64,000 nucleotides of DNA from Luteimonas padinae. Its GTDB lineage: Bacteria > Pseudomonadota > Gammaproteobacteria > Xanthomonadales > Xanthomonadaceae. A model generated the notes under the pieces. That model worked only from the letters and a program-made list of their open reading frames with translations. It had not been told where the DNA came from and searched no databases. Positions 15,023 to 44,251 of this stretch are shown one piece after another. A program made the translations under genes and the position numbers. Each line of letters starts with the position of its first letter. Positions within the stretch are counted from its first letter, which is position 1. The DNA lies in NCBI RefSeq assembly GCF_014652935.1, contig NZ_BMZT01000007.1, positions 8,464 through 72,463 on the forward strand, in the 5' to 3' direction.

Positions 15023-16419
<1,397 letters not shown>

Positions 16420-25719: not shown

Positions 25720-27000
25720 ATGGACGCCGCGGCCCCCGGACTCGCACACCACGCCGCGCTCGATGCGCGCATGGTCGCGGCGGCCCGCGGGATCCGGGTG
25801 CTGACGCTGACCAGCTGGCCGGCGTCGGTGCAGCAGGGTTTCCTGGCCGACGCCGCGGCGGGCCGGCTGCGGCTGCCGCGGGTGGACTATCCCCGCCACG
25901 ACTTCAGCGACGCCCGCCGCGAGCTGCAGGCCATCGCCGATGCCGCCGATCCCGCGCATCCGCTGGGCCGCTACCTCGTCGATTCGGCGCGGCAGTGGGA
26001 CGTGGCGGCGCGCATGCTCGAAGCCCTGGGCACGCCGGCGGCCGGCGCGCTGTCGGTGGCGCTGTATGGCAGCCCGTGCGATCCGCTGCCCGGCGGCGGA
26101 CCGACCACGCGCGACGCCGCGCGGCATTTCATCGACATCGCCAACGAGCTCGACCGCGAGCTGCTGGCGCCGGAAGAGCAGGTCACGATCTCCGCCACCG
26201 CGCTGCAGCTGCAGCTGCAGAACGCGCTCGACGCCTTCTTCGGCGGGCGCGTGGTCGCGGTGGAGCTGGATCCGGACATGATCGCCAAGGCCGCCGCGGG
26301 CGCGTACCGCATCCGCCTGCGCACCGGCGCCGCCTACTCCGACTACGACCGCCAGCAGCTGCTCCACCACGAGGCGCTGGTGCACTCGCTGACCGCGCTC
26401 AACGGCCGCGCGCAGCCGCTGCTGCCGAGCCTGGCGATGTCCTCGCCGCGCATCACCGCCACCCAGGAGGGCCTGGCGGTGCTGGCCGAGCAGATCACAG
26501 GCAGCATCGACATCGAGCGCATGAAGCGCATCAGCCTGCGCACCGAGGCCATCGCGATGGCGATGGAGGGCGCGGACTTCCTGCAGGTGTTCGCGTACTT
26601 CCGCGATGCCGGCCAGGAGACCGCCGAGAGCTTCTCGTCCGCCCAGCGCGTGTTCCGCGGCGTGCCGGTGGCCGGCGGCGCCGCCTTCGCCAAGGACACG
26701 GTGTACCTGCGCGGGCTGGTCGAAGTGCACACCTTCTTCCGCCACGCCCTGCGCGACGGGCGCCTGCGCCAGTGCCGGCGCCTGTTCGCCGGCAAGATGA
26801 CGCTTGACGACGTGCAGGCCTTCGAGCCGCTGTTCGAGTCCGGCGCGCTGCTGCCGCCGCGCTGGCTGCCCGACTGGGTGGCGCGCGCGAACGGCCTGGC
26901 GGGCCTGCTGGCGTTTTCGCTGTTCGCCAACCGCATCCGGCTGGACCGGCTGTCCGGAGGAGTCGGTTCCGGCGCGGAAGGCGGCGTGACGACCGCCTAG
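25720..27000 (+). CDS. DUF1704 (QEGLA-motif) metallopeptidase-like protein
   Basis: Protein of 426 residues of the DUF1704 family, once annotated as flavohemoglobin expression-modulating QEGLA proteins and related to the eukaryotic tubulin tyrosine carboxypeptidase MATCAP. The zinc motif HExxxH is present (His217, Glu218, His222 in HHEALVHSL), and the third ligand Glu250 is in the namesake TQEGLA. Helical flanks have ANELDRELLAPEEQ and FRDAGQETAESF. The bacterial substrate is unknown. ATG follows the rsgA stop by three bases, so the two are co-transcribed. Convergent overlap of four bases with the LysR gene. Confidence 0.87.
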   Translation: MDAAAPGLAHHAALDARMVAAARGIRVLTLTSWPASVQQGFLADAAAGRLRLPRVDYPRHDFSDARRELQAIADAADPAHPLGRYLVDSARQWDVAARMLEALGTPAAGALSVALYGSPCDPLPGGGPTTRDAARHFIDIANELDRELLAPEEQVTISATALQLQLQNALDAFFGGRVVAVELDPDMIAKAAAGAYRIRLRTGAAYSDYDRQQLLHHEALVHSLTALNGRAQPLLPSLAMSSPRITATQEGLAVLAEQITGSIDIERMKRISLRTEAIAMAMEGADFLQVFAYFRDAGQETAESFSSAQRVFRGVPVAGGAAFAKDTVYLRGLVEVHTFFRHALRDGRLRQCRRLFAGKMTLDDVQAFEPLFESGALLPPRWLPDWVARANGLAGLLAFSLFANRIRLDRLSGGVGSGAEGGVTTA

Positions 27001-27902
27001 CCGCCGGCACCACCCGCGCGCGCATCGCGCAGGGTCCTGGCGAATACGGTAAGGAAGCGGCGCACGGCCTCCGACGGAGGCCGGTCCTCGAGGTGCACGT
27101 ACTGCACCTTGAAGCGCAGCGGCGGCGAGAACGGGCGGTGCGACAGGCTGGGGCCGCTGCTTGCGCGCGCGGTGAACTCGTCCACCACCGCCATGCCGAC
27201 GCCGTGCCGCGCCAGCTCCGCGGCGATGTAGAAGGTCTGGTTGGAGACCACCTCGTTGGCGGCGATGTCCTGGCGCTGCAGTTCGCGGTTGAGCAGGTCG
27301 CCCACCGGGCCTCCCGTCGTCAGTCCCACCAGGTTCTGCCCGTCGAGGATCCGCAGCGGCACGTGTTCGCCCGCGTCCGGCAGCATGTCGCTGCGGAACA
27401 GCAGCATCAGTTCGCCGCTGTCGATGTCGCGGCGCTTCATCCGCGGGTGCGTCGGCGGGTCGTAGGCGATGGCGACGTCGCAGCTGCGCTCGTACAGGGC
27501 CTGGAACAGCGCGTCGTGGTGCAGCGTCTGCACGTCGAAGCTGACGTCCGGATGGCGGGCGCGGAAGCGGGCGATGGCCAGCGGCGCGACGTGCAGGCCG
27601 AGCGAGGGCACGACCGCCAGGCGCACGCGGCCGCCGGCGAGGTTGCGCAGGTTGCCGACCGTCTTCTGCAGCGAGGTCAGCCGGCTGAAGACTTCCGACA
27701 CCTCGACGAACAGCTCGTGCGCCTGGTCGGTGGCGACCAGCCGGCCGCGCACCAGGCGGAACAGCTCCAGGCCCAGCTGCTGCTGGGTGTGGTGCAGCAC
27801 CTTGCTGACCGAGGGCTGCGACACGTGCAGCGCGCGCGCGGCGGCGCTGATGCTGCCGGTGGTGTAGACGGCGTGGAAGACCTCGATCTGGCGGAAGCGC
27901 AT
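26997..27902 (-). CDS. LysR-family transcriptional regulator
   Basis: LysR-type regulator of 301 residues: winged helix at the N-terminus (FHAVYTTGSISAAARALHVS, then QPSVSKVLHHT) and a periplasmic-binding-protein-like effector domain beginning near residue 90 (GRVRLAVVPSLGLHVAPLAI). The gene lies head to tail with the gamma-glutamyltransferase 66 bases upstream on the same strand and shares a CTAG stop overlap with the converging DUF1704 gene. Control of the transferase/D-amino-acid block is the simplest guess. The ligand is unknown. An AGGAG precedes the ATG. Confidence 0.9.
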   Translation of the reverse strand: MRFRQIEVFHAVYTTGSISAAARALHVSQPSVSKVLHHTQQQLGLELFRLVRGRLVATDQAHELFVEVSEVFSRLTSLQKTVGNLRNLAGGRVRLAVVPSLGLHVAPLAIARFRARHPDVSFDVQTLHHDALFQALYERSCDVAIAYDPPTHPRMKRRDIDSGELMLLFRSDMLPDAGEHVPLRILDGQNLVGLTTGGPVGDLLNRELQRQDIAANEVVSNQTFYIAAELARHGVGMAVVDEFTARASSGPSLSHRPFSPPLRFKVQYVHLEDRPPSEAVRRFLTVFARTLRDARAGGAGG

Positions 27903-27967
27903 GGGGGTCCGGCACTCCTGGGTGAGAGCGGGCATGATCGGCGCCAGGCCCCCCGCCCGTCGCGTGA

Positions 27968-29719
27968 CTAAGGTCGTGCGGCGACGCCCTCGCGCCGGGG
28001 ATCGGCAGCGCCGTGCAGCGCGTGGCCCTCTCTGGCCACGCCGTGCAGGCCGGAATCCTCGCCGGCGCCCGCCACCACGTCCACGCCGAGCGCCGACAGC
28101 GCCGCCCGCAGCTCCGGCGCGAAGGCATCGGCCTCGCCGTTGAAGCGTTCGCCGCGCGCGACCAGGTTGGGCAGCGCGACCGCGTCCTGCAGCGGCAGGT
28201 CCCAGTACAGCCAGCCGACCAGGGTCTTGGCGATGTAGGCCGGGATCGCGTTGCCGCCCGGCGATCCGATCGCGCCGACGAAGCCGCCGTCGCGGTCGAG
28301 CACGATCACCGGCGACATCGACGAGCGCGGGCGCTTGCCCGGCGCGATCGCGTTGGCCGCAGCCGCGCCCGGCCCCCAGGAGAAGTCGGTGAGCTGGTTG
28401 TTGAGCAGCATGCCGCCGACCACGCGCCCGGAGCCGAAATAGGATTCGATGGTGGTGGTCATCGACACCGCGTTGCCGCGGGCGTCGACCACGACGAGGT
28501 GGCTGGTGCCGGCGGGTTCGTCGGTGGCGTCGACGTCGCGCGCGGGTGCGCCGGGCGGGCGGCCGTGCGCGGGCGCGCCGGCGGCGGCACGCGGGCCGAT
28601 CAGTGCGCGGCGAGCGGCGAGGTAGTCCGGATCGAGCAGGCCCTGCACCGGCACGTCGGCGAAGCGCGGATCGCCGACGTAGTGGTCGCGGTCGGCGTAC
28701 ATCAGGCGGCTGGCCTCGGCGAACAGGTACCAGGCCAGGGGGTCGTCGGGGCCGCGCGCGGCGATGTCGGTGCCGTCGAGCAGCAGCATCAGCTGCAGCA
28801 GGCCGACGCCGCTGGCCGGCGGCGGCGCGACGCAGAGCACGTGGGCGCGCAGCGGGCGGCAGATCGGATCGCTGCGCTCGGCGACCTCGGCCTGCAGGTC
28901 CGCCGGCGTCATCCGCGCAGCGTGCGGCGGCGCGGCCACGCGCGCGGCCAGCTGGTCGGCCAGCGGGCCGCTGCGCAGTGCGTCGGCGCCGCGCGCGGCG
29001 ATCGTGCGCAGGCTGGCGGCGTAGGCGGGATTGCGGAAGGTGTCGCCGATGCGCAGCGGCGTGCCGTCGGGTCCCGCGAACAGCGCCACCACGTCGGGGG
29101 CGGAGGCCTGCGGGAAGCGGCCGGCGATGTGGCGGTGCAGGCGCGGCGTGACCGCGAAGCCGAGCTCGGCGCGCCGCGCGGTGGACTCGAACAGGCTGCT
29201 CCACTCGAGCGTGCCGTGCGCGGCATGTGCGAGTTCGAGCGCCGGCAGCGCGCCGGGAACGCCGGTGGCGCGGCCGCTGAGCATCGCCTCGGCGCGCGAC
29301 AGCGGGCGTCCGTCGGCGTCGCTGAACATGCCGGGCCCGGCGCCGGCCGGCGCGCGCTCGCGGCCGATCCAGCTGTCGACGCGCCCGGACGCGGCGTCGT
29401 AGTGCAGCACGATCGCGCCGCCCAGCAGGCCCGAGCTCTGCGGTTCGACCAGCCCCAGCATCGCCTGCACCGCGACCGCGGCGTCGATCGCGCTGCCGCC
29501 GCGGCGCAGCACTTCCAGGCCGGCTTCGGTGGCGAGCGGATGCGCGCTGCTGACCATGCCGGCGTCCGGCGCCTGCGTGTGTCCACCGGCCGCGGCCGGT
29601 AGCGGTGCGGGCGCGGCGTCGCGCGGAGCGGTGCCGCAGGCGGCCAGGCAGAGCAGGGCCAGCGCGGTCAGCGCGCGGGCGCGGCGGGAGAGGGATGCAT
29701 GCGACGACGACGAGGCCAA
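27968..29719 (-). CDS. gamma-glutamyltransferase, lipoprotein (paralog 1)
   Basis: Ntn-hydrolase of 583 residues, exported as a lipoprotein (LALLCLAAC). It should self-cleave before Thr405 (GTSHLVVVD; the common motif is TTHxSVVD, so the second residue is Ser here) to give large and small subunits, and then hydrolyse or transfer gamma-glutamyl groups. Other signatures: PQSSGLLGGA, GRPLSRAEAML, SMSPVIVLDRDGGF and GSPGGNAIPAYIA. The TTG start is supported by AGGAG six bases upstream. Divergent from a second family member; both face a 195-base promoter region. A peptidoglycan-related gamma-D-glutamyl substrate is possible. Confidence 0.9.
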   Translation of the reverse strand: MASSSSHASLSRRARALTALALLCLAACGTAPRDAAPAPLPAAAGGHTQAPDAGMVSSAHPLATEAGLEVLRRGGSAIDAAVAVQAMLGLVEPQSSGLLGGAIVLHYDAASGRVDSWIGRERAPAGAGPGMFSDADGRPLSRAEAMLSGRATGVPGALPALELAHAAHGTLEWSSLFESTARRAELGFAVTPRLHRHIAGRFPQASAPDVVALFAGPDGTPLRIGDTFRNPAYAASLRTIAARGADALRSGPLADQLAARVAAPPHAARMTPADLQAEVAERSDPICRPLRAHVLCVAPPPASGVGLLQLMLLLDGTDIAARGPDDPLAWYLFAEASRLMYADRDHYVGDPRFADVPVQGLLDPDYLAARRALIGPRAAAGAPAHGRPPGAPARDVDATDEPAGTSHLVVVDARGNAVSMTTTIESYFGSGRVVGGMLLNNQLTDFSWGPGAAAANAIAPGKRPRSSMSPVIVLDRDGGFVGAIGSPGGNAIPAYIAKTLVGWLYWDLPLQDAVALPNLVARGERFNGEADAFAPELRAALSALGVDVVAGAGEDSGLHGVAREGHALHGAADPRREGVAARP

Positions 29720-29914
29720 GGGCGGCTCCTGCGTGGCGCGGCGACGCGCGGGTCGCCGCCATGGAACGGTCCGGCGAGGCTATCGCGATCGCAGGCCGCG
29801 CGTCCCTCGCTTTGCCGCCGTGTTCCATAGCCCCGCTGCATACCCGACCACAGGAAAGCTGCGCGACACGGCCGATCGCCTGCGGCAGTGTCGGAATGCA
29901 ACCGGAGAACCGAC

Positions 29915-31642
29915 ATGCGCAGGCCGTCCACCCTGTCCGCCGCGGCGCTGCTCGCCGCCTGCCTTGCCATCGCCGCGCCGACGGCCCCGGCGCAGACGCG
30001 GCAGCTGCTCAACTACGAAGAGATCCACAAGCCCGTTGTCGCCGACGGCGGCATGGTGGTCAGCCAGAGCGACCACGCCAGCCGGATCGGCGCCGAGGTC
30101 CTGCGCGAGGGCGGCAACGCGGTCGATGCCAGCGTGGCGATGGCCTTCGCCATGGCGGTGACGCTGCCGCGCGCAGGCAACATCGGCGGCGACGGCTACA
30201 TGCTGCTTCACCTCGCGGACGGCCACGCGGTGGCGATCGACTTCCGCTCGATGGCGCCGGCGCTTGCCACGCTCGAGGCCTACGTGGGCGAGGACGGAAG
30301 CCTGCAGGGCCACGCCGCGGGCATCCGCGCCGCGGGCGTGCCGGGCACGGTGGCGGGCCTGGCGCTGGCGCACGGGAAATACGGGCGCCTGCCGTGGAGG
30401 CGGCTGCTGCAGCCGGCGATCCGGCTGGCCGCGGACGGCATGGTGCTCAGCCGCGACGAGGCCTTCGCGCTCGAATGGGGCCGTGAGCGGCTGGCGCGCA
30501 GCGCAGCGGGCGCGAAGGTCTTCCTGCATCCCGACGGCTCTGCGTTGCGCGCCGGCGAGCGCCTGGTGCAGGCCGACCTCGCCTGGTCGCTGCGCCAGAT
30601 CGCCGAGCACGGCGCGGACGCCTTCTACCGCGGCGCGATCGCCGAGCGCCTCGACGCCGGCATGCGCGCCCACGGCGGACTGCTGCGCAAGGACGACCTC
30701 GCCGCCTATCGCGCGATCGAGCGTGAGCCGCTGCGCAGCAGCTACCGCGGCCACGCGCTGCTGACCATGCCGCCGTCCAGCGGCGGCGGGCCCGGCATCG
30801 CGATGACGCTCAACATCCTCGAACAGTTCGACCTCGCGGCCATGGGTGCCGGCTCCGCCGACGCCCTGCACCTGCTGGCCGAAGCGACCAAGCTGGCCTG
30901 GCGCGACCGCCGCGCCCATGCCAACGATCCCGCCGCCGCGCCGGTGCCGCTGGGCGGCTTCGTCTCCAAGGCCTACGGCGCATCGCGCGCGGCCGCGATC
31001 AGGATGGACCGCGCGACGCCGGCCGCCGAGGTGGCCGCCGGCGACATCTGGGCGCACGAAGGCCCCGACACCACGCACTTCTCCGTGGTCGACGGCGAGG
31101 GCAACGCGGTCAGCACCACGTACACGATCGGCGCCGATTTCGGCTCGGGCGTGATGATCGAAGGCACCGGCTTCCTGCTCGGCAACCTGATCGGCAACTT
31201 CTCGCTGCAGGCGCAGCTGGACGCCGCGCGCGACGGCCGCGAACCGCCGGCGAACGCGCTGCGCCCGGGCAGCCGCCCGGTGTCGAGCATGGCGCCGACG
31301 ATGCTGCTGCGCGACGGCCGGCCGTGGCTGGTGACCGGCAGCCCCGGCGGCAACACGATTCCCGGCACGATCGTGCAGATGGTGGTCAACGTGGTCGATT
31401 TCGGCATGAACATCGCCGAGGCCACCGCGTTCCCGCGCATCCACCAGCAGGTCACGGACCGCGGCGAGCTCGACATCGAGCGCGGCTTCAGCCCGGACAC
31501 GCTGCGCCTGCTGCGCGAGCGCGGCCACGTGCCGGAGCAGGGGCAGACCATCGGCAGCACGCAGACGCTGCTGCTGGAGCCGGGGCGGGTGGAAGGCGCG
31601 GCCGATCCGCGGCGCCCGGGCGCGTCGGCCGTCGCGCGCTAG
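29915..31642 (+). CDS. gamma-glutamyltransferase, periplasmic (paralog 2)
   Basis: Second Ntn-hydrolase of the family, 575 residues, with a Sec signal (LLAACLAIAAPTAPAQ). Catalytic Thr386 is in the canonical DTTHFSVVD, and the substrate loop SSMAPTMLLRDG and GSPGGNTIPG are intact. It shares only the fold signatures with its divergent neighbour, so the two probably differ in substrate. Likely role: periplasmic release of glutamate from gamma-glutamyl compounds (glutathione, gamma-glutamyl peptides, or gamma-D-glutamyl bonds of cell wall). ATG at 29915 with GGAG is preferred to a GTG nine codons upstream. The TonB receptor gene follows by 137 bases. Confidence 0.9.
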   Translation: MRRPSTLSAAALLAACLAIAAPTAPAQTRQLLNYEEIHKPVVADGGMVVSQSDHASRIGAEVLREGGNAVDASVAMAFAMAVTLPRAGNIGGDGYMLLHLADGHAVAIDFRSMAPALATLEAYVGEDGSLQGHAAGIRAAGVPGTVAGLALAHGKYGRLPWRRLLQPAIRLAADGMVLSRDEAFALEWGRERLARSAAGAKVFLHPDGSALRAGERLVQADLAWSLRQIAEHGADAFYRGAIAERLDAGMRAHGGLLRKDDLAAYRAIEREPLRSSYRGHALLTMPPSSGGGPGIAMTLNILEQFDLAAMGAGSADALHLLAEATKLAWRDRRAHANDPAAAPVPLGGFVSKAYGASRAAAIRMDRATPAAEVAAGDIWAHEGPDTTHFSVVDGEGNAVSTTYTIGADFGSGVMIEGTGFLLGNLIGNFSLQAQLDAARDGREPPANALRPGSRPVSSMAPTMLLRDGRPWLVTGSPGGNTIPGTIVQMVVNVVDFGMNIAEATAFPRIHQQVTDRGELDIERGFSPDTLRLLRERGHVPEQGQTIGSTQTLLLEPGRVEGAADPRRPGASAVAR

Positions 31643-31779
31643 CAGGGCGGGGCGCAGGCATAACCTGCCGCTATGGGGTGGGCCCAAAAAGCGAGGCTTC
31701 GCGAGGTCGCAACGTCGCTAGAGTCCGGGCAGGGGAGCGCGGCGACGCGCCGGTTCATGCCTTCGGAGGGAATCACCAC

Positions 31780-34700
31780 ATGCATCATCGCCTGATCAAG
31801 CCGACGCTGCTCAGCGTCATCCTCGCCTCCACGCTGCAGGGCATGGCCTTCGCGCAGCAGCCGCCGGCGGAGCCCGCGCCGCCTCTGGCCGATACCGAAG
31901 CCGATGCCGCGCAGGGGCCGAGCGCCAAGGACCTGGACGCCGTGACGGTGGTGGGCAGCCGCCTGGCCAGCAACCGCGTCGAAGGGCCGTCGCCGGTGCT
32001 GGTGATGGACGAGGAGAAGATCGAGGCCACCGGTGCGATCTCCGGCGACGAGCTGCTGCAGTCGATCCCGCAGGTCGGCGACATGATGTTCAACAACGCC
32101 GACACCGCCGCCAACCTCAACGCCGCGCGCGGCGACGTCGGCTCGATCAACCTGCGCAACCTCGGCACCGGCAACACCCTGCTGATGGTGAACGGCCGGC
32201 GCATGGTCCCGCATCCGGGCACGCAGACCGAGGCGCTGGTGCCGCGGCAGACCGCCAACATGAACGCGATTCCGCTGTTCGGCACCCGCCGGGTGGAGAC
32301 CCTGCTCGGCGGTGCGTCCGCGCTGTACGGATCCGATGCGGTGGCCGGCGTGGTCAACGTGGTGCTCGACACCCACTACCAGGGCTTCCAGGTGCAGGGC
32401 CAGTACGGCGGCTCCGAAGACGTGGACTTCCGCCAGGGCAACATCAACTTCAAGGCCGGCAAATGGTTCAACGACGGCCGCACGCGGGCCACGGTAGTCG
32501 GCGGCTGGACGCATCGCACCGACCTCCCGGCCACCGAGCGCGACTACAGCGCCAACATGGACCGCCGCGCGCAGATGGACGGCACCGACTTCGAGGGCGT
32601 CACCGCCTTCGACGACCGCATCACCGGTACGTCCTGGGGCGTGTTCCAGACCATCGACGGCGTGCGCGTGCGCGATGCCGACAACGGTTCGATCACCAGC
32701 GCCAGCGGCTATTTCCACATCGACCCGGTGGGCCACCACGGCTGTACCGCGCAGATCACCGACGATGTCTGCGTCAATTCCGGCGCGCAGAGCACCGACG
32801 CCGACCGGCCTCTGCGCTTCAGCCCGAACCACCAGCGCAACATCCTGGGCGAGGTCGACCGCATGAACGTGTTCGGCACGCTCGAACACGATCTGGACGA
32901 CAACTTCGTCGCCTTCGCGGAGCTGGCGTACTACGAGTCCCGCTACAAGGGCATGCGCGAGCAGGCGGCGGCGCTGGGCGCGGCGCCGATCATCGTGTCG
33001 AAGACCAACTACTGGAACCCGTTCGGCGCCATGTACCTGCCCGACGGTTCGCTCAATCCCAACCGCCTGGCCGGCATCGACGCGCCGGAGGAGGGGCTGG
33101 ACGTGCGCATGACCAGCTTCCGCGCCACCGACACCACGCGCCCGTACACGGTCGATGACGACCAGTACCGGTTCCTGGCCGGCGTCCGCGGCATGGTGGG
33201 CGGCTTCGACTGGGAAGGCGCGGTGCTGTACTCGGAGGCCAACACCACCGACACCCAGCACGGCTCGATCAGCAGCACGCTGTTCACCGAGGCCCTGGCG
33301 TGGAGCACGCCCGATGCCTACAACCCCTTCCACGGCGGCAACCTCGCCGACTGGGGCGCGCCGCCGGATTCCGCGCGCAACCAGGCGGCGATCGACCACT
33401 TCACGGTTCCCGTGGTCCGCAAGAGCAAGGCGACGCTGTTCCAGGTCGATACCCGCTTCATCCGCGAGGACCTGTTCGCGCTGCCCGCCGGCCACGTCGG
33501 GGTCGCCTTCGGCGCCGAGTGGCGCCGGGAAACCCTGAAGGACGACCGCGACCCGCGCTTCGACGGCACCATCACCTATACCAACCCGATGAACGGTGCG
33601 ATCACCAGCGACGTGCTCGGCGCCAGCCCGTCGGGCGACAACTCCGGTGACCGCGACGTCGGTTCGCTGTACGCCGAGTTCGCGATCCCGCTGGTGTCGC
33701 CGTCGATGGGCGTGCCGCTGGTGCGCGCGCTGGACCTGCAGGTCGCCGGGCGCCACGAGCGCTACTCGGACTTCGGCGGCGTCACCAAGCCCAAGGTCTC
33801 GCTGGCCTGGGACATCGTCGACGGCCTGATGGTCCGCGGCAACTGGTCGGAGAGCTTCCTCGCGCCCAACATCCTGCAGCTGTACGCCGAAGGCACCACG
33901 GTCAGCAACAGCCGCACCGACTACTACGTCTGCGAGGCCGACATCCGCAACGGCACCATCGACGGCGTGCACCGCTGCGGCCGCAGCTACAGCACCATGG
34001 CGATCCGCAGCGGCAACCGCGACCTGCAGCCGGAGACGGCGGAAACCTGGTCGGCGGGCGTCGTGTTCCAGCCGCGCTTCCTGCCCGAATCCACCCGGAT
34101 GACGTTCACCGCCGACTACTTCGAGATCCAGCAGGAAGACGTGATCGGCATCCTGGGCGAGGCCACCCAGCTGGCGCTGGACTACCTGCTGCGCATGGAG
34201 GGCTCGTACAACCCGGCGGTGGTGCGGCTGGAGCCCGACCAGGCCCGGATCGACCTGTTCGACGGCACCGGGCTGGCGCCGGTGGGCATGGTCGACTACG
34301 TGGATGACGTCTACATCAACCGCCTGCCGCGGACCACGCGCGGCATCGACTTCGGCGTCGACTGGCGCCTGCGCACGGACAATGCCGGCACCTTCAACGC
34401 CAGCCTCAACGCGACCCGCCTGATCGAGATGTCGCAGGACCCGACCGAGGACGAGCTGCGCATCATCGCCGCCCAGGAAGCCGGGGTCATCGACGACAAC
34501 TTCGACATCCGCAACGCCGGCAACCTGCTGGGCGTGAACGGCAAGCCGGAGTGGCGCGCCACCTTCAGCGCCTCGTGGCGCAAGGGCGGCTGGGGCCTGG
34601 GCACCTTCGTCAACTACACCGACGGCTTCGAATCGACCGGCGCGGTGTCCAACCTCGGTGACTACTGGCAGGTGCCGAGCTGGACCACCGCCAACGTCTG

Positions 34701-34881
34701 GGCCGAGCACCGCTTCAGCGGGACCGAGAGCCTCCTCGACGGCACCCGCATCCGCCTGACCGTGCGCAACGTCGGCGACCGCCAGCCGCCGCTGACGCCC
34801 AGCGCGCTGGGCTACAGCTCGTCGATGCACAATGCGCTGGGGCGTGGCTGGTACCTGACGGTGACCAAGTCCTTCGACTGA
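31780..34881 (+). CDS. TonB-dependent outer-membrane receptor
   Basis: Receptor of 1033 residues. Signal peptide ends near TLQGMAFAQ; a short Pro-rich segment precedes the TonB box-like DAVTVVGSR; the plug domain (about 55-170) has SIPQVGDMMF, LRNLGTGNTLLMVNGRR and GGASALYGSDAVAGVVN; the rest is the 22-strand barrel ending in the terminal aromatic pattern WYLTVTKSF. The size and DxVxVVGSR type match xanthomonad receptors for oligosaccharides or peptides rather than siderophores. A CGGAGG stands before the ATG. Position between a gamma-glutamyltransferase and a D-Ala-D-Ala dipeptidase fusion suggests import of cell-wall or gamma-glutamyl peptides. Confidence 0.93.
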   Translation: MHHRLIKPTLLSVILASTLQGMAFAQQPPAEPAPPLADTEADAAQGPSAKDLDAVTVVGSRLASNRVEGPSPVLVMDEEKIEATGAISGDELLQSIPQVGDMMFNNADTAANLNAARGDVGSINLRNLGTGNTLLMVNGRRMVPHPGTQTEALVPRQTANMNAIPLFGTRRVETLLGGASALYGSDAVAGVVNVVLDTHYQGFQVQGQYGGSEDVDFRQGNINFKAGKWFNDGRTRATVVGGWTHRTDLPATERDYSANMDRRAQMDGTDFEGVTAFDDRITGTSWGVFQTIDGVRVRDADNGSITSASGYFHIDPVGHHGCTAQITDDVCVNSGAQSTDADRPLRFSPNHQRNILGEVDRMNVFGTLEHDLDDNFVAFAELAYYESRYKGMREQAAALGAAPIIVSKTNYWNPFGAMYLPDGSLNPNRLAGIDAPEEGLDVRMTSFRATDTTRPYTVDDDQYRFLAGVRGMVGGFDWEGAVLYSEANTTDTQHGSISSTLFTEALAWSTPDAYNPFHGGNLADWGAPPDSARNQAAIDHFTVPVVRKSKATLFQVDTRFIREDLFALPAGHVGVAFGAEWRRETLKDDRDPRFDGTITYTNPMNGAITSDVLGASPSGDNSGDRDVGSLYAEFAIPLVSPSMGVPLVRALDLQVAGRHERYSDFGGVTKPKVSLAWDIVDGLMVRGNWSESFLAPNILQLYAEGTTVSNSRTDYYVCEADIRNGTIDGVHRCGRSYSTMAIRSGNRDLQPETAETWSAGVVFQPRFLPESTRMTFTADYFEIQQEDVIGILGEATQLALDYLLRMEGSYNPAVVRLEPDQARIDLFDGTGLAPVGMVDYVDDVYINRLPRTTRGIDFGVDWRLRTDNAGTFNASLNATRLIEMSQDPTEDELRIIAAQEAGVIDDNFDIRNAGNLLGVNGKPEWRATFSASWRKGGWGLGTFVNYTDGFESTGAVSNLGDYWQVPSWTTANVWAEHRFSGTESLLDGTRIRLTVRNVGDRQPPLTPSALGYSSSMHNALGRGWYLTVTKSFD

Positions 34882-34960
34882 GCGCCGCCGTCATCGCCAC
34901 CGCCGCCGCCACGAGGGGCGGCGGTGGCCGCGCGCAACCGCAGGACCTGCCGGAGGAACC

Positions 34961-36790
34961 ATGAAGCGATCCCGCAAGAACCGCCACGCCTTGTCGCTGT
35001 GCGCGGCCTGGCTGCTGGCGTGCGCGTGGCTGCCGTCGATGGCGGCCGACGATGTCGAAGCCCGGCTCCGCGGGCTGATGGCCGAGCACGACACCGTGGG
35101 CCTGGCGGTGGTGGTGGCCAGGGACAACGCCATCGTCTACCGCGGCAGCTTCGGCTGGAAGGACCTGGAGGCGAAGGTTCCGCTGGAAGCCGACGACCTG
35201 TTCCGGATCGCCTCGATCTCCAAGTCGTTCGCGGCCACCTCGGTGATGCAGCTGGTGGAGCAGGGCCGGCTGTCGCTGGACGACGATGCCGGCGACCTGA
35301 TCGGCTTCCCGGTGCGCAATCCGGCCTTCCCCGACCGGCCGATCACGCTGCGGATGCTGCTCGACCACACCTCGTCGATCACCGACGGGCCGAGCTACGG
35401 CAATCTCGACGTCATCGACCCCGGCGCCGGCGGCAACTGGCAGGGCAGCTACGCCGACCGTGCGCCCGGCGAGCGCTACGAATACTCCAATCTCGCCTAC
35501 AACATGGTGGGGACGATCGTGGAGCGGGTGTCGGGCGAACGCTTCGACGCCTACGTGCGGCGGCACGTGTTCGAACCGCTCGGGCTCGAGGGTGGCCACC
35601 TGGTGGACACGCTGGACGCGGGGCGCCTGGCCCGCATCTACCGCTGGCGCGACGGCGAGGGCTTCGTGCGCTCGGACGCGGCCTATGCGCCGCTGGGCGA
35701 GCGCCTGCAGCACTACGTGCAGGGCCGCGACGCGCCGATGTTCTCGCCCACCGGTGGCGTCAAGATCTCGGCACCCGACCTGGCCCGCTACATGCTGATG
35801 CACATGAACCAGGGCGAGTGGAACGGCGTGCGCATCATCGCCCCCGCCAGCGCGAAGGCGATGCAGACGGCGACCGTGGACGTCGACGGCACAGCCGCCT
35901 ACGGGCTGGCGCTGAAAACCGATCCGGAGCTGGTGCCGGGCGTGGTGCTGACCGGCCACACCGGCTCAGCCTATGGCCTCTACAGCTCGATGTTCTTCGA
36001 CGCGGAGAAGAAGTACGGCTTCGTGGTGATCACCAACGGCAGCCGCGGGGAGGAGGCGTTCCGCACCGCGGTCAACCGGGCGCTGCACGAGCATTTCATC
36101 GCCGATCCCGCGGCGGAGCCGGCGGCCGCGCCCGCGCCCGTCGTGTCCGACGCGACCACCAGGGCCGAGGCCGGCCTGGTCGACATCCGCGAGCTGGTGC
36201 CCGACATCTCGCAGTCGATCGCCTATGCCGGCAGCCACAACTTCGTCGGTGCGCCGGTGGACGGCTACGAAGCGCCGCGCTGCTGGCTGAAGCGCGACGC
36301 CGCCGAGGCGCTGGCGCGGGTCGACGCGGCCCTGCGTCCGCGTCACCTGCGCCTGCACGTGTTCGATTGCTACCGCCCGGCGCGCGCGGTGGCGCACTTC
36401 ATGCGCTGGGTGGAGGACGCGGACGACCTGGCCACCAAGGCCACGCACTATCCCGACCTGGACAAGCCGCAGCTTCTGGAGGGCTACATCGCCCCGGTGT
36501 CCGGCCACAGCCGCGGCGGCACCGTCGACCTCACCCTGCTGCGCTGCGACGCCGACGGCGCCGGCTGCGAGCCGCTGGACATGGGCACCGGCTTCGACTT
36601 CTTCGGGCCGCTGGCCAACACCGACTCGCCCGACGCCAGCCCCGCGCAGCGCGCCAACCGGCAGCTGCTGCGCGAGGCGATGGAGGCCGGCGGCTTCCGC
36701 AACCACCCGATGGAGTGGTGGCACTACGGCTTGCGCTCCGATGCGCCGCCCGGCCCGCTGTACGACGTGCCAATCAGCTCCAGACGTTGA
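34961..36790 (+). CDS. serine beta-lactamase-like hydrolase fused to a VanX-type D-Ala-D-Ala dipeptidase
   Basis: Exported protein of 609 residues with a Sec signal ending near SMA. Domain 1 (about 32-390) is a penicillin-binding/class C beta-lactamase-like serine hydrolase: SxxK at Ser85-Lys88 (SISK), YSN at 175-177, HTG at 333-335. A Pro/Ala-rich linker (about 393-408) leads to domain 2 (about 410-609), an M15D D-Ala-D-Ala dipeptidase: zinc ligands His516 and Asp523 (HSRGGTVD), His588, and catalytic Glu585 (EWWH), spaced as in VanX. Domain 1 could be a D-aminopeptidase or carboxypeptidase feeding domain 2. CGGAGGAA precedes the ATG. Its last 17 bases overlap the convergent gltS gene. Confidence 0.9.
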   Translation: MKRSRKNRHALSLCAAWLLACAWLPSMAADDVEARLRGLMAEHDTVGLAVVVARDNAIVYRGSFGWKDLEAKVPLEADDLFRIASISKSFAATSVMQLVEQGRLSLDDDAGDLIGFPVRNPAFPDRPITLRMLLDHTSSITDGPSYGNLDVIDPGAGGNWQGSYADRAPGERYEYSNLAYNMVGTIVERVSGERFDAYVRRHVFEPLGLEGGHLVDTLDAGRLARIYRWRDGEGFVRSDAAYAPLGERLQHYVQGRDAPMFSPTGGVKISAPDLARYMLMHMNQGEWNGVRIIAPASAKAMQTATVDVDGTAAYGLALKTDPELVPGVVLTGHTGSAYGLYSSMFFDAEKKYGFVVITNGSRGEEAFRTAVNRALHEHFIADPAAEPAAAPAPVVSDATTRAEAGLVDIRELVPDISQSIAYAGSHNFVGAPVDGYEAPRCWLKRDAAEALARVDAALRPRHLRLHVFDCYRPARAVAHFMRWVEDADDLATKATHYPDLDKPQLLEGYIAPVSGHSRGGTVDLTLLRCDADGAGCEPLDMGTGFDFFGPLANTDSPDASPAQRANRQLLREAMEAGGFRNHPMEWWHYGLRSDAPPGPLYDVPISSRR

Positions 36791-37967
36791 TGAAGCCGGT
36801 GATGATCAGCGCATTGCTGAAGTCGATGAAGAACGCGCCCACCAGCGGCGCGACCAGGAAGGCGCGCGGCGCCGCGCCGTAGCGCTCGACGAGCGTGCGC
36901 ATCACCGCCATCGCGTTCGCGGTGGTGCCGAGCATGAAGCCGATGAAGCCGCCGCCCATCACCGCGGCGTCGTAGTCGCGGCCCATCATCCGGAACACCA
37001 CCAGGCAGAACGCCGCCACCATCCCCACCTGCAGGCCGAGGTTCACCAACAGCGGCAGCGCCAGCCCGGCCAGCTCCCACAGCTTCAGGTTCATCAGCGC
37101 CACCGACAGGAACAGCGCCAGGCAGACGTTGCCGATCAGGTCGGTGGTGGGCACCGACATGCCGATCCAGCCAGTGGCGTCGTCGATGTTGCGGATCACC
37201 GCGCCCACCAGCATCGCGCCGACATAGGCCGGCAGGGTGATGCCGGTGGCCGAGATCAGCCCGCTGACCCAGCTGCCCAGCCACATGGCCACCAGGATCA
37301 CGACGATGCTCTTCAGCGCGCCGTATTCGCGCTGGGCCTCGGTCAGCGCCGGCGCGGCGACGGCATCGTCGGGGGCGTCATGGTCCTGCGGGCGCGTGGA
37401 TACCAGGCCGAAGCGGCGGATCAGCACGGTGATCACCGGGCCGCCGATCAGGCCGCCCAGCACGATGCCCGCCATCGCGGCCGCCACCGCGATCGATTCG
37501 GCGCCCTCGACGCCGGCGGCCTCGAACAGCGGCGCGAACGCCAGCCCGGTCGCCGGCCCGCCGGTCAGCGTGGTCGACCCGGCCAGCACGCCGAACAGCG
37601 GATGCAGGTCGAAGCCGACCGCCACCGCCATGCCCAGCAGGTTCTGCGCCACGGCGAACACGGTGGCGAGCGCCAGGAACACCAGCACCTGCCGGCCGCT
37701 GATCTTCAGCAGGCGCAGGCTGGCATTGACGCCGATGGTGGTGAAGAACGCGATCATCAGCGGGCTCTGCAGGCCGGTGTCGAGCTCGAACAGGGCGGTG
37801 CCGCGGTCGTGGGCGATCCAGGCGGCGATCGCGAACACCAGGCCGCCGATCACCGGCGGCGGCAGGTTGTAGCGGCCGAGCACGGGGATCGCGCGGCACA
37901 GCGCATAGCCCAGGAACAGGGCGATGCCGGCAAGGGCGAGGGTCTGGACGGCGTCGAGTTGCAGCAT
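36774..37967 (-). CDS. gltS: sodium/glutamate symporter
   Basis: Inner-membrane protein of 397 residues of the ESS family, about ten to twelve helices, with the two Gly-rich re-entrant loops GGLVFAIAA and GGPATGLAF-like (TLTGGPATGLAFAP). It should import glutamate with sodium; E. coli GltS accepts both L- and D-glutamate. The ATG ending at 37967 has AGGAG five bases upstream; the GTG two codons earlier overlaps that site and is rejected. First of the gene group with the D-aminoacylase, epimerase and DUF1611 genes, though on the same strand but downstream of them, 47 bases after the aminoacylase stop. Confidence 0.93.
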   Translation of the reverse strand: MLQLDAVQTLALAGIALFLGYALCRAIPVLGRYNLPPPVIGGLVFAIAAWIAHDRGTALFELDTGLQSPLMIAFFTTIGVNASLRLLKISGRQVLVFLALATVFAVAQNLLGMAVAVGFDLHPLFGVLAGSTTLTGGPATGLAFAPLFEAAGVEGAESIAVAAAMAGIVLGGLIGGPVITVLIRRFGLVSTRPQDHDAPDDAVAAPALTEAQREYGALKSIVVILVAMWLGSWVSGLISATGITLPAYVGAMLVGAVIRNIDDATGWIGMSVPTTDLIGNVCLALFLSVALMNLKLWELAGLALPLLVNLGLQVGMVAAFCLVVFRMMGRDYDAAVMGGGFIGFMLGTTANAMAVMRTLVERYGAAPRAFLVAPLVGAFFIDFSNALIITGFINVWS

Positions 37968-38014
37968 GGACACTCCTTTTCGGGGTCACGTCGCCCGCAG
38001 CGGGCGGGCGAAGT

Positions 38015-39667
38015 TCAGGGGCAGGTGCCCGGCGGTGGACGATGCTGCAGCACCCGTCCCGGAAGGTCATGTGTCGCAAGGCCCGTGTCGATCATCGCCA
38101 CGCCGTTGACCAGCAGGTGGACGACGCCTTCCGACAGCAGGTGCGGCTGCACGTAGTCGGCCTTCGGCGCGTAGGCGTCGGGGTCGAACACCAGCACGTC
38201 GGCGTAGTGGCCTGCGCGCAGGAAGCCGCGGCCTTCGAGGCCGAAGGTGGTGGCGGTCAGCCCGGTCGAGCGGTGGATGAAGGCCGCCAGGTCGATCACC
38301 TGGTCCTGCACCACGAAGCGCGCGTATTTCTCGGGAAACGTCGCGTGCTGGCGCGGATGGCCGTCGCCGCCGTCGGAGGCGGTCAGCACCCAGGGCTGGC
38401 GCATGAACAGGTCGACGTCGTCGCGGTGCATGTTGAACGAGGCGATGCGCTGCGCCGAACCAGTACGTCCGGTGCCGCCCTCGCGGATGATGCGCAGCGC
38501 GGCTTCGACCGGGTCGAGGCCTTCGGCATCCGCGAACGCCTGCAGCGTCAGCGCGCTCCACGGCCATCCGCTGCCGGTCATCAGGATCGCGTCGGCGCCG
38601 CCGCGGCGCTGCAGGTTGTCGGCCATTTCCCCTCGGATGCGGGCGGCGGTCGCGGGATCGTCCAGCCGCTCGAACAGCGCGGCGCGCCCGCCGTCCACCG
38701 CCCAGCGCGGCAGCACCGCGGCGCCCAGGCTGGTGGATGACGCCAGCCAGGGATACTGGTCGGCGGTCACCTGCTGGCCTTCATCCCGCGCGCGTTCGAT
38801 GCGTGCGATGACTTCGCCCGCGCTGCCATGGACGTCGGCGCCCAGGGCCTTGATATGGGCGATGTGCACCGGCAACCCGGCGCGCCGCCCGATCTCCAGC
38901 ACCTCCTCGATCGAGCCCATCAGGCCCAGCGAATAGCTCGACTCGTCGCGCTGGTGGGTGTCGTAGACGCCGCCGCGGATCGCCGCCTCGCGCGCGAGCG
39001 CGACCACCTCGTCGGTGGAGGCGAAGCTCTGCGGCGCGTAGAACAGGCCCGCGGACAGGCCGAAGGCGCCCTCGCACATCGCGCCTGCGACCAGGCCGCG
39101 CATGCGTGCCAGTTCGTCCGCGTCCGGCGCGCGCGCGTCGTCGCCCAGCACGCGACGGCGCACGGGGCCCAGGCCGACGTAGGCGGCGACGTTGGTGCCG
39201 GTGCCCGCGGCCTCGAGCCTGGCGCGGTCCGCCTCGATGTCCGGAGTGCCGCCGCCGTCGATGCCGATGAAGATCGTGCTCACGCCCTGGTGCAGCCAGG
39301 GCAGCAGGCGGCGCATCGCCGGGTCCGTCGAGCGCAGGTAGGTGTCGGGATGCGTATGCGGGTCGATGAGGCCCGGCGACACCACCAGGCCGGTGGCGTC
39401 GAGCTCGCGCGCGGCGCGGTAGCGCTGGCGCAGGCCGGGGCCGACCTCGAGGATGCGGTCGCCGCGGATCGCGACGTCGGCGATGCGGCCCGGCCCGTCG
39501 CCGCCGTCGAACAGCATCCCGCCGTGGATCAGGACATCGGCTTCGGCGCCGGCCGGCGCCATGCCCGCGCATCCCGCCAGCAGCAGCCCGGACAGGACGG
39601 CGGCCAGCACGCCCGGTCCGCGCGGTCGGTAGATCCTGCCGGCGCGCAGGCGCCGACCGCCCCTCAC
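38015..39667 (-). CDS. N-acyl-D-amino-acid deacylase family lipoprotein
   Basis: Amidohydrolase of 550 residues of the D-aminoacylase group (COG3653), exported with a lipobox (LLLAGC). Metal motif LIDPHTHPDTY near residue 100; further ligands in VHIAHIKALG (with the carbamate/Lys region) and the catalytic Asp in TASDGGDGHPRQHA. It hydrolyses N-acyl-D-amino acids or D-aminoacyl peptides. The GTG start overlaps the epimerase stop (GTGA), so the two are translationally coupled. Predicted location outside the cytoplasm means it would generate free D-amino acids for uptake by the symporter encoded next. Confidence 0.88.
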   Translation of the reverse strand: MRGGRRLRAGRIYRPRGPGVLAAVLSGLLLAGCAGMAPAGAEADVLIHGGMLFDGGDGPGRIADVAIRGDRILEVGPGLRQRYRAARELDATGLVVSPGLIDPHTHPDTYLRSTDPAMRRLLPWLHQGVSTIFIGIDGGGTPDIEADRARLEAAGTGTNVAAYVGLGPVRRRVLGDDARAPDADELARMRGLVAGAMCEGAFGLSAGLFYAPQSFASTDEVVALAREAAIRGGVYDTHQRDESSYSLGLMGSIEEVLEIGRRAGLPVHIAHIKALGADVHGSAGEVIARIERARDEGQQVTADQYPWLASSTSLGAAVLPRWAVDGGRAALFERLDDPATAARIRGEMADNLQRRGGADAILMTGSGWPWSALTLQAFADAEGLDPVEAALRIIREGGTGRTGSAQRIASFNMHRDDVDLFMRQPWVLTASDGGDGHPRQHATFPEKYARFVVQDQVIDLAAFIHRSTGLTATTFGLEGRGFLRAGHYADVLVFDPDAYAPKADYVQPHLLSEGVVHLLVNGVAMIDTGLATHDLPGRVLQHRPPPGTCP

Positions 39668-40674
39668 GCCGCGTGCGCGTCCTTCGCGCGCGTGCCGCCG
39701 CCCCACAGCCCGGGCGACGGCGGCTGCAGCAGGCCGTCGACCATGGCCACGCCGCCGGGGTGGTCGTCCTTCAGCCACAGCGGGCCGTCGAGGTCGATGA
39801 ATTCCGCGTGGCGCGCCACGTGCCAGGCCGGCGCGATCGACAGCGACGAGCTGATCATGCAGCCGACCATGATCCCGAAGCCCTGCGCGCGCGCCGCGTC
39901 GAGCAGCTCCAGCGCGCCGGTGAGGCCGCCGGTCTTGTCGAGCTTGATGTTGACCACCTGGTAGCGCCCGCGCAGGCGCGCCAGGTCGTCGGCGGTGTGG
40001 CAGGACTCGTCGGCGCACAGGCGCGCCACCGGCTCGAAGCCGAGCAGGGCGTCGTCCTCGCCGGCCGGCAGCGGCTGCTCGACCAGGTCGACGCGCGCTT
40101 CGGCCAGCACCGGCTGCATCGCCCGCAGCAGGTCGAAGCTCCAGCTTTCGTTGGGATCGACGATCAGGCGCGCCGCGGGCAGCACGTCGCGCACGGCGCG
40201 GATCTGCGCCGCGGGATCGGACGCGTCGACCTTGATCTTCACCAGGTCGAGGTGGGCAAGCGCGCGCGCCGCCGCGGCCATGCGCTCCGGTGCGTCGAGG
40301 CTCACGGTCTGCGCGCACGCCAGCGGCGGCAGCGCACCGGGCTGGCCCAGCAGCGACTGCACCGGCAGGCCCTGCTGCCGCGCCTCCAGGTCCCACAGCG
40401 CGCAGTCGAGCGCATTGCGCGCCGCGCCCGGCGACAGCAGCTCGCGCAGTCCGCGCCGGTCCAGCCCGCCGGTGATGGCCGACGACAGCAGGCCGGCCTG
40501 TGCGATCACCGAGTCCACGGTCTCGCCATAGCGCGCGTAGGGCATCGACTCGCCGCGTCCGGTGAAGCCGTCGCGGCCGATGGTCGCCACGACGACCTCG
40601 GCCGAGGTGCGCACGCCGCGCGAGATCCGGAACGGCGTCGCCAGCGCATGGCTGGCGTGCGCGAGGCTCAGCAC
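39664..40674 (-). CDS. dgcA: dipeptide epimerase-like enolase-superfamily enzyme (DgcA type)
   Basis: Muconate-lactonizing-type enolase of 336 residues. The Lys pair is in DLVKIKVDA (KxK) and NIKLDKTGG; metal ligands Asp, Glu and Asp are in DPNESW, VEQPLP and ADESCH. This matches L-Ala-D/L-Glu epimerases. Adjacent to a DUF1611 gene it fits DgcA, reported in marine proteobacteria to convert N-acetyl-D-glutamate to N-acetyl-L-glutamate. The GTG start lies seven bases before the end of the DUF1611 gene. I prefer the DgcA reading because of this pairing and the GltS neighbour, but a muropeptide dipeptide epimerase remains possible. Confidence 0.8.
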   Translation of the reverse strand: MLSLAHASHALATPFRISRGVRTSAEVVVATIGRDGFTGRGESMPYARYGETVDSVIAQAGLLSSAITGGLDRRGLRELLSPGAARNALDCALWDLEARQQGLPVQSLLGQPGALPPLACAQTVSLDAPERMAAAARALAHLDLVKIKVDASDPAAQIRAVRDVLPAARLIVDPNESWSFDLLRAMQPVLAEARVDLVEQPLPAGEDDALLGFEPVARLCADESCHTADDLARLRGRYQVVNIKLDKTGGLTGALELLDAARAQGFGIMVGCMISSSLSIAPAWHVARHAEFIDLDGPLWLKDDHPGGVAMVDGLLQPPSPGLWGGGTRAKDAHAA

Positions 40675-41705
40675 GGCACCGCGTCCAGCAGGCGGTCGAC
40701 GATCCGGGCCACGCCGTCGCGCACCGGATCCTGTGCCGGCAGGCCGAGCAGGTCCTCGGCCTCGCGGCAGGCGCGCGCGGCCGCCGCGGCATCGAGCTTC
40801 GAGGTGTTCAGCGCCAGGCCCACCGCCACCACGTCCGGGCTGGTCAGCCGCGCGGCGGCGAGGTTGGCCTCCAGTGTCTGCGCCAGGTCCGGCAGCGGGT
40901 AGTGCGGCAGGCCGCGCATGTGCGGGCGCCCCGGCTCGTGGCACAGCACCAGTGCATCCGGCTGCGCGCCGTGCAGCAGGCCCAGCGACACGCCCGCGTA
41001 CGAGGGATGGAACAGCGAGCCCTGGCCCTCGATCAGGTCCCAGCCGCCGTCGTGGCGCTCGGGCGACAGCCACTCGATGCCGCCGGAGATGAAGTCGGCG
41101 ATGACGGCGTCGATCGGGATGCCGCGCCCGGCGATGAAGATGCCGGTCTGGCCGGTGGCGCGGAAATCGGCGGCCAGGCCGCGGCCGCGCATCTCCGCTT
41201 CCAGCGCCAGCGTGGCGTACATCTTGCCGGTGGAGCAGTCCGTGCCCACGGTGAGCAGGCGGCGGCCGGCGCGCGGGAGGCCGTTGCCGACCGGCGTGGG
41301 CGGGGGCGTGCGGGCGTCGAACAGGTGGCGGCCGTTGCGGCGCGCGGCCTCGACGATTTCGGGATGCGAGGCCAGGCGCTCGTGCAGGCCGGACGCGACG
41401 TTCATGCCGGCGTCCAGCGCCGCCACGATGTCGGCGACCGCCTCGGCGCCCAGGCGCCCGCCGGCGTTGGCCACGCCGACGATCATGGTGTTCGCGCCGG
41501 CGGCGCGGGCCTGGGCGAAGTCCATGTCCGGCACGTGCACGCTGGTCCGGCACTCCGGCCCGCGGAACTGGCCCACGCACCACTCCGGGCGGAACTGCAC
41601 CAGGCCGCGCGCGGTCTTCGCGGCCAGGTCGTCCGGCGCGTTCCCCAGGTACAGCAGGAAGGGCGGCGGCCAGTGCGAGGCGTCGGCGGGAACATCGGTG
41701 GACAT
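40668..41705 (-). CDS. dgcN: DUF1611 P-loop protein (DgcN type, D-glutamate N-acetyltransferase)
   Basis: Protein of 345 residues of the DUF1611 family: P-loop TVGTDCSTGKMYATL, RATGQTGIFIAGRGIPID, and IEGQGSLFHPSYAG. In Pseudoalteromonas and relatives DgcN, a member of this family, acetylates D-glutamate as the first step of D-glutamate breakdown, with DgcA next. Here the epimerase gene follows with a seven-base overlap, the same order. Start at the ATG ending at 41705; the ATG four codons earlier has its AGG too close. First gene of the minus-strand operon dgcN-dgcA-aminoacylase-gltS; its promoter lies in the 215 bases before maeB. Confidence 0.8.
   Translation of the reverse strand: MSTDVPADASHWPPPFLLYLGNAPDDLAAKTARGLVQFRPEWCVGQFRGPECRTSVHVPDMDFAQARAAGANTMIVGVANAGGRLGAEAVADIVAALDAGMNVASGLHERLASHPEIVEAARRNGRHLFDARTPPPTPVGNGLPRAGRRLLTVGTDCSTGKMYATLALEAEMRGRGLAADFRATGQTGIFIAGRGIPIDAVIADFISGGIEWLSPERHDGGWDLIEGQGSLFHPSYAGVSLGLLHGAQPDALVLCHEPGRPHMRGLPHYPLPDLAQTLEANLAAARLTSPDVVAVGLALNTSKLDAAAAARACREAEDLLGLPAQDPVRDGVARIVDRLLDAVPC

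Positions 41706-41920: not shown

Positions 41921-44251
<2,331 letters not shown>

Follow-up and report, generated by a model that had tools for sequence, protein, structure and literature searches.

Described routes of D-glutamate use and the Luteimonas locus

D-glutamate locked in murein is a slow-turning store of nitrogen and carbon. Murein peptide use of the Ykf/Ycj type relies on a dipeptide epimerase and an NlpC/P60 endopeptidase, and a D-glutamate catabolic pathway consisting of DgcN and DgcA was reportedly described by Yu et al. (2023) in ISME J. For a Shewanella, a passage of PMC10845958 proposes, from transcript levels, that the DgcN-DgcA route to L-glutamate is the main D-glutamate route. 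Here we describe, in a stretch of 64,000 nucleotides from Luteimonas padinae (hereafter, the window; contig C7 of a 3.12 Mb assembly, denoted G000), a locus of nine genes that fills the interval between the MATCAP/QEGLA gene (25720-27000) and maeB (41921-44251). On balance, we lean towards the view that this locus is a catabolic cassette under LysR control that acts on gamma-linked D-glutamyl peptides, the most likely substrates being murein stem peptides of lysed cells or of prey.

The rightward arm of the locus consists of ggt1, encoding a gamma-glutamyltransferase (GGT) homologue, the TonB receptor gene and the gene for a serine hydrolase-VanX fusion. The leftward arm, which converges with it, consists of dgcN, dgcA, an amidohydrolase gene and gltS, and ggt2-lysR forms a further leftward pair. 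The fusion gene and gltS converge and share 17 bases; with the GTG starts chosen, dgcN and dgcA overlap by 7 bases, and dgcA and the amidohydrolase gene by 4 bases. The features are as follows.

26997..27902, minus strand: LysR-type regulator, proposed for both arms (both Pfam domains found, HTH_1 PF00126 and LysR_substrate PF03466)
27968..29719, minus strand: GGT2, gamma-glutamyltransferase with a lipobox (PF01019, 433 bits)
29888..31642, plus strand: GGT1, gamma-glutamyltransferase homologue (PF01019, 524 bits; ATG start possibly at 29915)
31659..31675, no strand: operator-like palindrome CATAACCTGCCGCTATG, ~105 bp upstream of the TonB receptor gene
31780..34881, plus strand: TonB-dependent outer-membrane receptor (PF00593, PF07715)
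34961..36790, plus strand: exported S12-type serine hydrolase fused in frame to a VanX-type D,D-dipeptidase of family M15 (PF00144, 203 bits; PF01427, 135 bits against a cut-off of 27)
36774..37973, minus strand: GltS sodium/glutamate symporter (TIGR00210, 335.9 bits against a cut-off of 310.75)
38015..39667, minus strand: D-aminoacylase-like amidohydrolase lipoprotein, Asp137 replacing the zinc-ligand Cys (fold supported)
39664..40674, minus strand: DgcA, N-acetyl-D-glutamate racemase family (NF042940, 431.9 bits against a cut-off of 400)
40668..41705, minus strand: DgcN, N-acetyltransferase family, DUF1611 (NF041892, 512 bits against a cut-off of 480)
41803..41819, no strand: operator-like palindrome CATAACCCGGGGTTATG, 98 bp before dgcN and 102 bp before maeB

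Every part named in the original prediction, which was made from the letters of this DNA, is present within 26997-41705 at fitting coordinates, including the two divergent gamma-glutamyltransferases (GGT2 on the minus and GGT1 on the plus strand, both matching PF01019), and the identification of DgcN and DgcA is borne out by the scores of both proteins above the NCBIfam equivalog cut-offs. DgcA falls below the cut-off of the L-Ala-D/L-Glu epimerase model PRK15129 (308 vs 343). The DgcA of a relative, G063, passes both models (460 vs 400 and 349.8 vs 343), so that NF042940 and PRK15129 do not cleanly separate the two activities. Signal peptides or lipoboxes, judged by eye, are found in both GGTs, the TonB receptor, the fusion and the amidohydrolase, and not in DgcN or DgcA.

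The likeness to the DgcN-DgcA pathway resides in two enzymes that score above the equivalog cut-offs and in their overlapping genes. By contrast, the pair is joined here with GltS, an exported amidohydrolase, two GGTs, a TonB receptor, the fusion and a shared operator-like site, and, in relatives of the locus, DgcN occurs without an adjoining DgcA and the other parts occur without either. The locus shares its theme with the Ykf/Ycj-type clusters, which are carried by the family, some with VanX, a serine hydrolase and a TonB receptor. The window genome has such a cluster of its own on contig C3 (L033; G000:C3:43001-63000), a second, murein-peptide cluster that lacks the VanX gene carried there by several relatives. 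Unlike in these clusters, D-glutamate would, in the locus, be freed and racemised as N-acetylglutamate, not as L-Ala-D-Glu, and the nine genes include no NlpC/P60 gene, VanX being fused into the locus instead. The core of the pathway is known, whereas the kit, with its shared switch and its pair of altered enzymes, seems to be a novel variation on it.

Conservation of the gene neighbourhood

The family sample comprised 149 genomes drawn from a larger group (the window genome included; G numbers denote genomes), and stretches of up to 20 kb (L numbers) were read around 20 places. All nine genes occur in the same order in Luteimonas arsenica (L048) and Luteimonas colneyensis (L049), and much of the locus is found in other Lysobacteraceae; the conserved neighbourhood that the original prediction had set as a check was therefore found. 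The nearest named relatives of the fusion protein are those of L. arsenica (96%) and L. colneyensis (93%). In comparison with these two species, the ratio of nonsynonymous to synonymous divergence (dN/dS, Nei-Gojobori) is 0.08-0.34 for each locus gene, the fusion linker excluded; for this linker, of 27 codons, dN/dS is 0.72 in one comparison and was not found in the other. Since two further species preserve the complete gene order at such dN/dS values, the locus is more than a chance cluster, an explanation that is also disfavoured by the conserved neighbourhood combined with the shared palindrome. Synonymous divergence from L048 is 0.05-0.13 for the TonB receptor, the fusion domains, GltS and the amidohydrolase (31780-39667), compared with 0.29-0.44 for the flanking genes; given this lower divergence, the middle block was probably exchanged recently by recombination.

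GGT1 (E <=1e-100) is present in seven of the 149 genomes and close-type DgcN (70-78% identity, the window aside) also in seven, together 11 genomes. All seven GGT1 loci contain GltS, the amidohydrolase, LysR (in G063, its first 50 residues only, at the edge of the stretch) and a TonB receptor, which is alike at 62% or more in four loci and at 26% in three, where it may be another receptor. GGT2 is found in six of the seven, the window-type serine hydrolase and DgcN in three each and DgcA in two. The common core of the locus is GGT1, the amidohydrolase, GltS and LysR. G003 has LysR, GGT2, GGT1, the TonB receptor, an unfused serine hydrolase, GltS and the amidohydrolase, without DgcN or DgcA; G133, G010 and G060 resemble it, except that no serine hydrolase there matches the window's (that of G060 is at 33%), the TonB receptor of G010 and G060 being just 26% alike. 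All parts are present in G063, but with an unfused serine hydrolase and a TonB receptor at 26%. G047 carries GltS, the amidohydrolase, DgcN, LysR, GGT1 and a TonB receptor plus an M14 peptidase, and G072:C1 and G097 carry solely LysR, GltS and DgcN.

Among the eight close-type DgcN loci, GltS lies beside DgcN in seven (not in G072:C5) and DgcA in five; DgcN with GltS and without DgcA occurs in G072, G097 and G047. In L013 and L014, such GltS-DgcN pairs stand beside LysR and with the palindrome, and DgcN may function there independently of DgcA. Five other genomes counted as belonging to the genus (G028, G070, G097, G123 and G144) have neither GGT1 nor the window-type fusion, and DgcN occurs among them only in G097 (a short form) and G123 (the distant type only). 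The other 27 DgcN matches in the family sample belong to this different type (47-53% identity), which is clustered with serine hydrolases and an epimerase in seven of the nine loci read and with an amidohydrolase in three; a TonB receptor is also present in the annotated locus of this type, L028.

The MATCAP-maeB interval is an integration slot. MATCAP and maeB are adjacent (116-330 bp) in G070, G055, G083 and G087, where the slot is empty, and RsgA and maeB are neighbours in G123 and G109. MATCAP and maeB are separated by ~1.5 kb in G028, G099 and G125, and by ~13 kb of other material in G144 and G016. In G113, the slot is occupied by genes for a TonB receptor (44%) and GltS (72%) and has no palindrome, and the slot of G047, where the locus is on another contig, holds a VanX-serine hydrolase fusion. 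Because the slot is empty or otherwise filled in relatives, the cassette is an optional filling of a fixed site.

The LysR regulator and the shared palindrome

The sequence at 41803, in the gap between dgcN and maeB, is a perfect 6-5-6 palindrome, and the one at 31659, between ggt1 and the TonB receptor gene, differs by one mismatch from CATAAC-N5-GTTATG and is conserved in L048 and L049. The palindrome has the T-N11-A form of LysR boxes. Within two mismatches, the window contains two matches (0.14 expected), a number reached by one of 100 shuffles. With the operator pattern CATARC-N5-GYTATG, the whole G000 assembly contains two sites only, those at 31659 and 41803, and the genomes of L. arsenica and L. 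colneyensis contain two each, both within the locus. Of the 22 sites in the 149 family genomes, eight are spread over seven of the 138 other genomes; the remaining 14 belong to the 11 locus genomes, and every one of them falls within the stretches read next to close-type DgcN or GGT1 genes. The strict CATAAC-N5-GTTATG, derived from the window site alone, accounts for nine of these 22 sites, six in locus genomes and three outside.

When two mismatches are allowed, 14 loci together contain 24 sites, all of them outside the homologues of the window's genes. A site precedes the gltS arm in 12 of the 13 GltS-bearing loci (not in L017), and the rest precede GGT, TonB or LysR genes; at three mismatches, 13 further sites are added, four in such promoters and nine elsewhere. 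The DNA-binding part of LysR (columns 1-62) is 85-100% identical to that of nine close orthologues, compared with 53-96% for the remainder. From the co-occurrence and the conserved helix-turn-helix (HTH) domain, we infer that LysR binds the CATARC-N5-GYTATG sites. The two convergent arms are tied into one putative regulon by the shared palindrome, and co-regulation of both arms is predicted on account of this operator-like site. The alternative that the palindrome belongs to maeB is not favoured because the maeB of G047, which stands without the operon, has no match within two mismatches, and none was found in the 12 other maeB stretches read; maeB may also respond at 41803.

Two atypical enzymes and their partners

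GGT1 resembles the GGTs of MEROPS family T03 in the catalytic Thr391, Arg114, Ser462-Ser463 and the oxyanion glycines Gly483-Gly484, all of which are kept. The residues that bind the amino group are replaced (N411G, Q430L and D433N, E. coli numbering), and Gly411/Leu430/Asn433 is found in all nine GGT1 sequences read, the window included (eight of eight readable aligned rows and L. colneyensis). In the alpha-amino pocket, GGT1 has neither Asn411/Gln430/Asp433 nor Glu/Glu/Asp as in Bacillus subtilis, and, judging from the alignment, it has lost the three residues that hold the free amino group of the substrate. Asn at 433 is shared with class IV cephalosporin acylases, and D433N gives GGT action on a glutaryl substrate that lacks the amino group (both in passages of PMC8062742); GGT1 differs from these acylases and from T03 GGTs in additionally having Gly411 and Leu430. 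In drawn samples, GGT1-like genes at E 1e-165 occur in two of 369 genomes of the class and four of 200 of the order, all from the window's family. GGT2 keeps Gln430 and Asp433, with Glu at 411 and a shortened lid-loop region, in eight of eight rows, as it does the catalytic Thr, and falls below the NCBIfam equivalog cut-off (317 vs 358).

The amidohydrolase shares the fold and most active-site residues with D-aminoacylase and N-acyl-D-glutamate deacylase (subtype V). Both zinc-binding His residues and the catalytic Asp are kept, as are the alpha-carboxylate anchors Lys/Tyr/Arg named in a passage of PMC12017989. The difference lies in the Cys of the Cys/His/His site, which is Asp137 in the window and Asp in 10 of 10 aligned locus amidohydrolases. 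A metagenome-assembled genome labelled Sinomicrobium (L051) encodes, on a single strand, four serine hydrolase homologues (48-52%); its amidohydrolase (40%) likewise has Asp at the Cys position.

The zinc motifs of VanX/DdpX are HxxGxxxD and ExxH, and in the fusion they are HSRGGTVD and EWWH, aligned to 1r44. The best solved relatives of the fusion are 1r44 (D-Ala-D-Ala dipeptidase) and 2qmi and 4y7p (alkaline D-peptidase). The VanX domain falls below the cut-off of the glycopeptide-resistance equivalog NF033115 (158.6 vs 320 bits), and the fusion is the sole M15 match in the window genome. Fusions in which the window-type serine hydrolase precedes VanX were seen in three Luteimonas only (the window, L. 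arsenica and L. colneyensis); G003 and G063 encode relatives of this hydrolase (68-73%) as separate proteins. In G063, G047 and G082, open frames have the reverse order, VanX being followed by a serine hydrolase of a different kind (Pfam domains confirmed for G063), and G054 has a three-part open frame. In L041:9067-12486, a frame of 1139 amino acids comprises a serine hydrolase, VanX and a second serine hydrolase. The repeated joining of the two activities, in both orders, suggests that they work together.

Single VanX genes have a dipeptide-epimerase homologue within 20 kb in seven of the nine distinct loci read (L053 duplicates L038), and L043 and L033 hold together an NlpC/P60-SH3 protein, a transglutaminase-like protein, a TonB receptor, an epimerase and a serine hydrolase. 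A tree of 18 VanX rows, which covers a minority of the VanX matches and is without G077 and the P. daejeonensis row (identical to G010), places the Luteimonas domain in a supported set of nine (98/96) with the VanX-first fusions, G081 and G088, with weak branching inside this set and at the base. Borrowing of VanX from the genus's own murein cluster is not favoured, given that the tree separates the Luteimonas domain from the G097, G070 and G144 copies.

As to the transporter, passages of PMC12502697 state that an E. coli D-glutamate auxotroph needed gltS mutations, at positions 163 and 355, that a Vibrio fischeri auxotroph with wild-type gltS needed at least 111 uM D-glutamate and that gltS mutations (including Ala164Thr) lowered this need. 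Ala occupies positions 163 and 355 in the window copy, and Thr163 is present in five of the 11 other aligned locus GltS copies (G063, G141, G133, G010 and G060). Import of D-glutamate by GltS is a plausible possibility.

Proposed function and alternative explanations

The gene set, its conservation, the palindromes and the residue changes are read from the sequence; from these we infer the enzymatic steps, their order, D-glutamate transport and LysR binding. The TonB receptor would carry oligopeptides into the periplasm and the fusion would trim their D-Ala or D-Ala-D-Ala ends. GGT1, no longer gripping a free alpha-amino group, would cut the gamma-D-Glu bond while the D-Glu nitrogen is acylated (for example, between D-Glu and meso-diaminopimelate, mDAP, in L-Ala-gamma-D-Glu-mDAP), and GGT2 would cut gamma-glutamyl bonds that have a free amino group. 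The D-aminoacylase-like lipoprotein would release D-glutamate from its N-acyl or N-aminoacyl partner, GltS would import glutamate, and DgcN and DgcA would convert D-glutamate to N-acetyl-D-glutamate and then to N-acetyl-L-glutamate. Given the gene set, co-inheritance and shared site, the locus is likely to be one regulated unit; the types of enzyme encoded point to a peptide containing D-amino acids as the likely substrate, for which murein is the best candidate in view of VanX and the genes that usually accompany it. Tentatively, and with more doubt than confidence, we extend this to a movable LysR-switched cassette for "mining" D-glutamate, in which a GGT subfamily would cut N-acylated gamma-D-Glu bonds internally and an Asp/His/His amidohydrolase would split L-Ala-D-Glu, so that D-glutamate would be freed outside the cytoplasm, unlike in the cytoplasmic MpaA/YcjG-type and Ykf-type routes. 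If true, a compact regulated cassette that releases D-glutamate outside the cytoplasm for DgcN and DgcA would join murein turnover with D-amino-acid catabolism, which are mostly described apart. The operator-like site would be a cheap, direct handle on which genes form the system, and GGT1 and the amidohydrolase would be concrete candidates for new specificities.

Several observations weigh against this reading of the locus as a cassette for D-glutamyl peptides. Four of the seven GGT1 loci (G003, G133, G010 and G060) have no dgcN or dgcA beside GltS and the amidohydrolase, so D-glutamate catabolism is not obligatory to the set. No DgcN match was found anywhere in these four genomes, and, in a search of 11 genomes, their epimerase homologues elsewhere are only 33-37% identical. 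This dispensability shows that the outer arm with GltS is the common core and D-glutamate catabolism is one outcome; in genomes without dgcN and dgcA, D-glutamate might be channelled directly into the synthesis of murein or undergo racemisation by other means. The amidohydrolase lacks a Cys ligand that a passage of PMC12017989 presents as strictly conserved in characterised D-aminoacylase relatives, and may have another activity. The two positions whose mutation accompanied D-glutamate use in E. coli, 163 and 355, carry the wild-type Ala in the GltS of the window. Regarding the palindrome, the association of sites with locus genomes (Fisher p 2.3e-12) is partly circular and overstates the case because the pattern was built from these loci, the lack of sites elsewhere in locus genomes depending less on its derivation; and a control with the pattern reversed matches 61 times, in 41 of the 149 genomes, which exceeds the eight matches of the true pattern outside locus genomes. 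Between GGT2 and GGT1 in the window, no operator-like site is present within three mismatches, so the two GGTs may fall outside the regulon in Luteimonas. Two of the 14 sites, those of G032 and G072:C5, are ~7 kb from DgcN and precede a different GGT, and the stretches of G032, G072:C5 and G141 hold only a distant LysR (HTH 45-61% identical). Taken together, the D-glutamate scavenging of the original prediction is partly supported, by conservation, the equivalog scores, the probable export of the outer enzymes and the shared operator-like site, whereas the locus, which that prediction centred on D-glutamate, is not centred on dgcN-dgcA, given the four loci without both genes, and GGT1 and the amidohydrolase are atypical for their families.

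The absence of dgcN and dgcA from these loci is what would be expected under general scavenging of glutamyl peptides, glutathione and glutamate, with D-stereochemistry incidental and DgcN/DgcA a late addition. GltS is primarily an L-glutamate carrier, and the window copy is wild-type at the two positions looked at, which also fits. However, a D-aminoacylase-like enzyme that keeps the carboxylate anchors for D-substrates is found in all seven loci and GltS adjoins DgcN in seven of eight close-type DgcN loci, so we regard this explanation as unlikely. Slightly less likely still, in our estimate, is degradation of the poly-gamma-glutamate (D- or D/L-) of other bacteria, with GGT1 cutting inner bonds, GGT2 cutting ends, and GltS and DgcN/DgcA consuming the monomers. 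The two GGTs do have different pocket types, GGT1 without amino binders could take an internal residue, and GGT2 has a shortened lid-loop region; lid-less Bacillus GGTs have solvent-exposed pockets according to a passage of PMC8062742. Under this scheme, however, the D,D-dipeptidase domain and the N-acyl-D-amino-acid-type amidohydrolase have no evident role; and VanX often accompanies murein-peptide genes in the family, an argument limited by the presence of VanX in the locus of three Luteimonas only.

Finally, the locus could consist of two unrelated gene groups that share the slot between MATCAP and maeB, which, being empty in four genomes and holding other material in G144, G016 and G047, accepts varied cargo. 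This we consider highly improbable: G047 carries most of these parts side by side on a contig that does not include the slot, and in the three Luteimonas genomes the palindrome is found ahead of the two arms and nowhere else.

Other features of the window

A gene for an M14 zinc carboxypeptidase (start uncertain) lies at 23131-24732, and a 51% homologue adjoins the TonB receptor in the G047 locus. Elsewhere in the window, 15019-16581 and 54961-56613 encode a further amidohydrolase and an L,D-transpeptidase (YkuD) with a peptidoglycan-binding domain.

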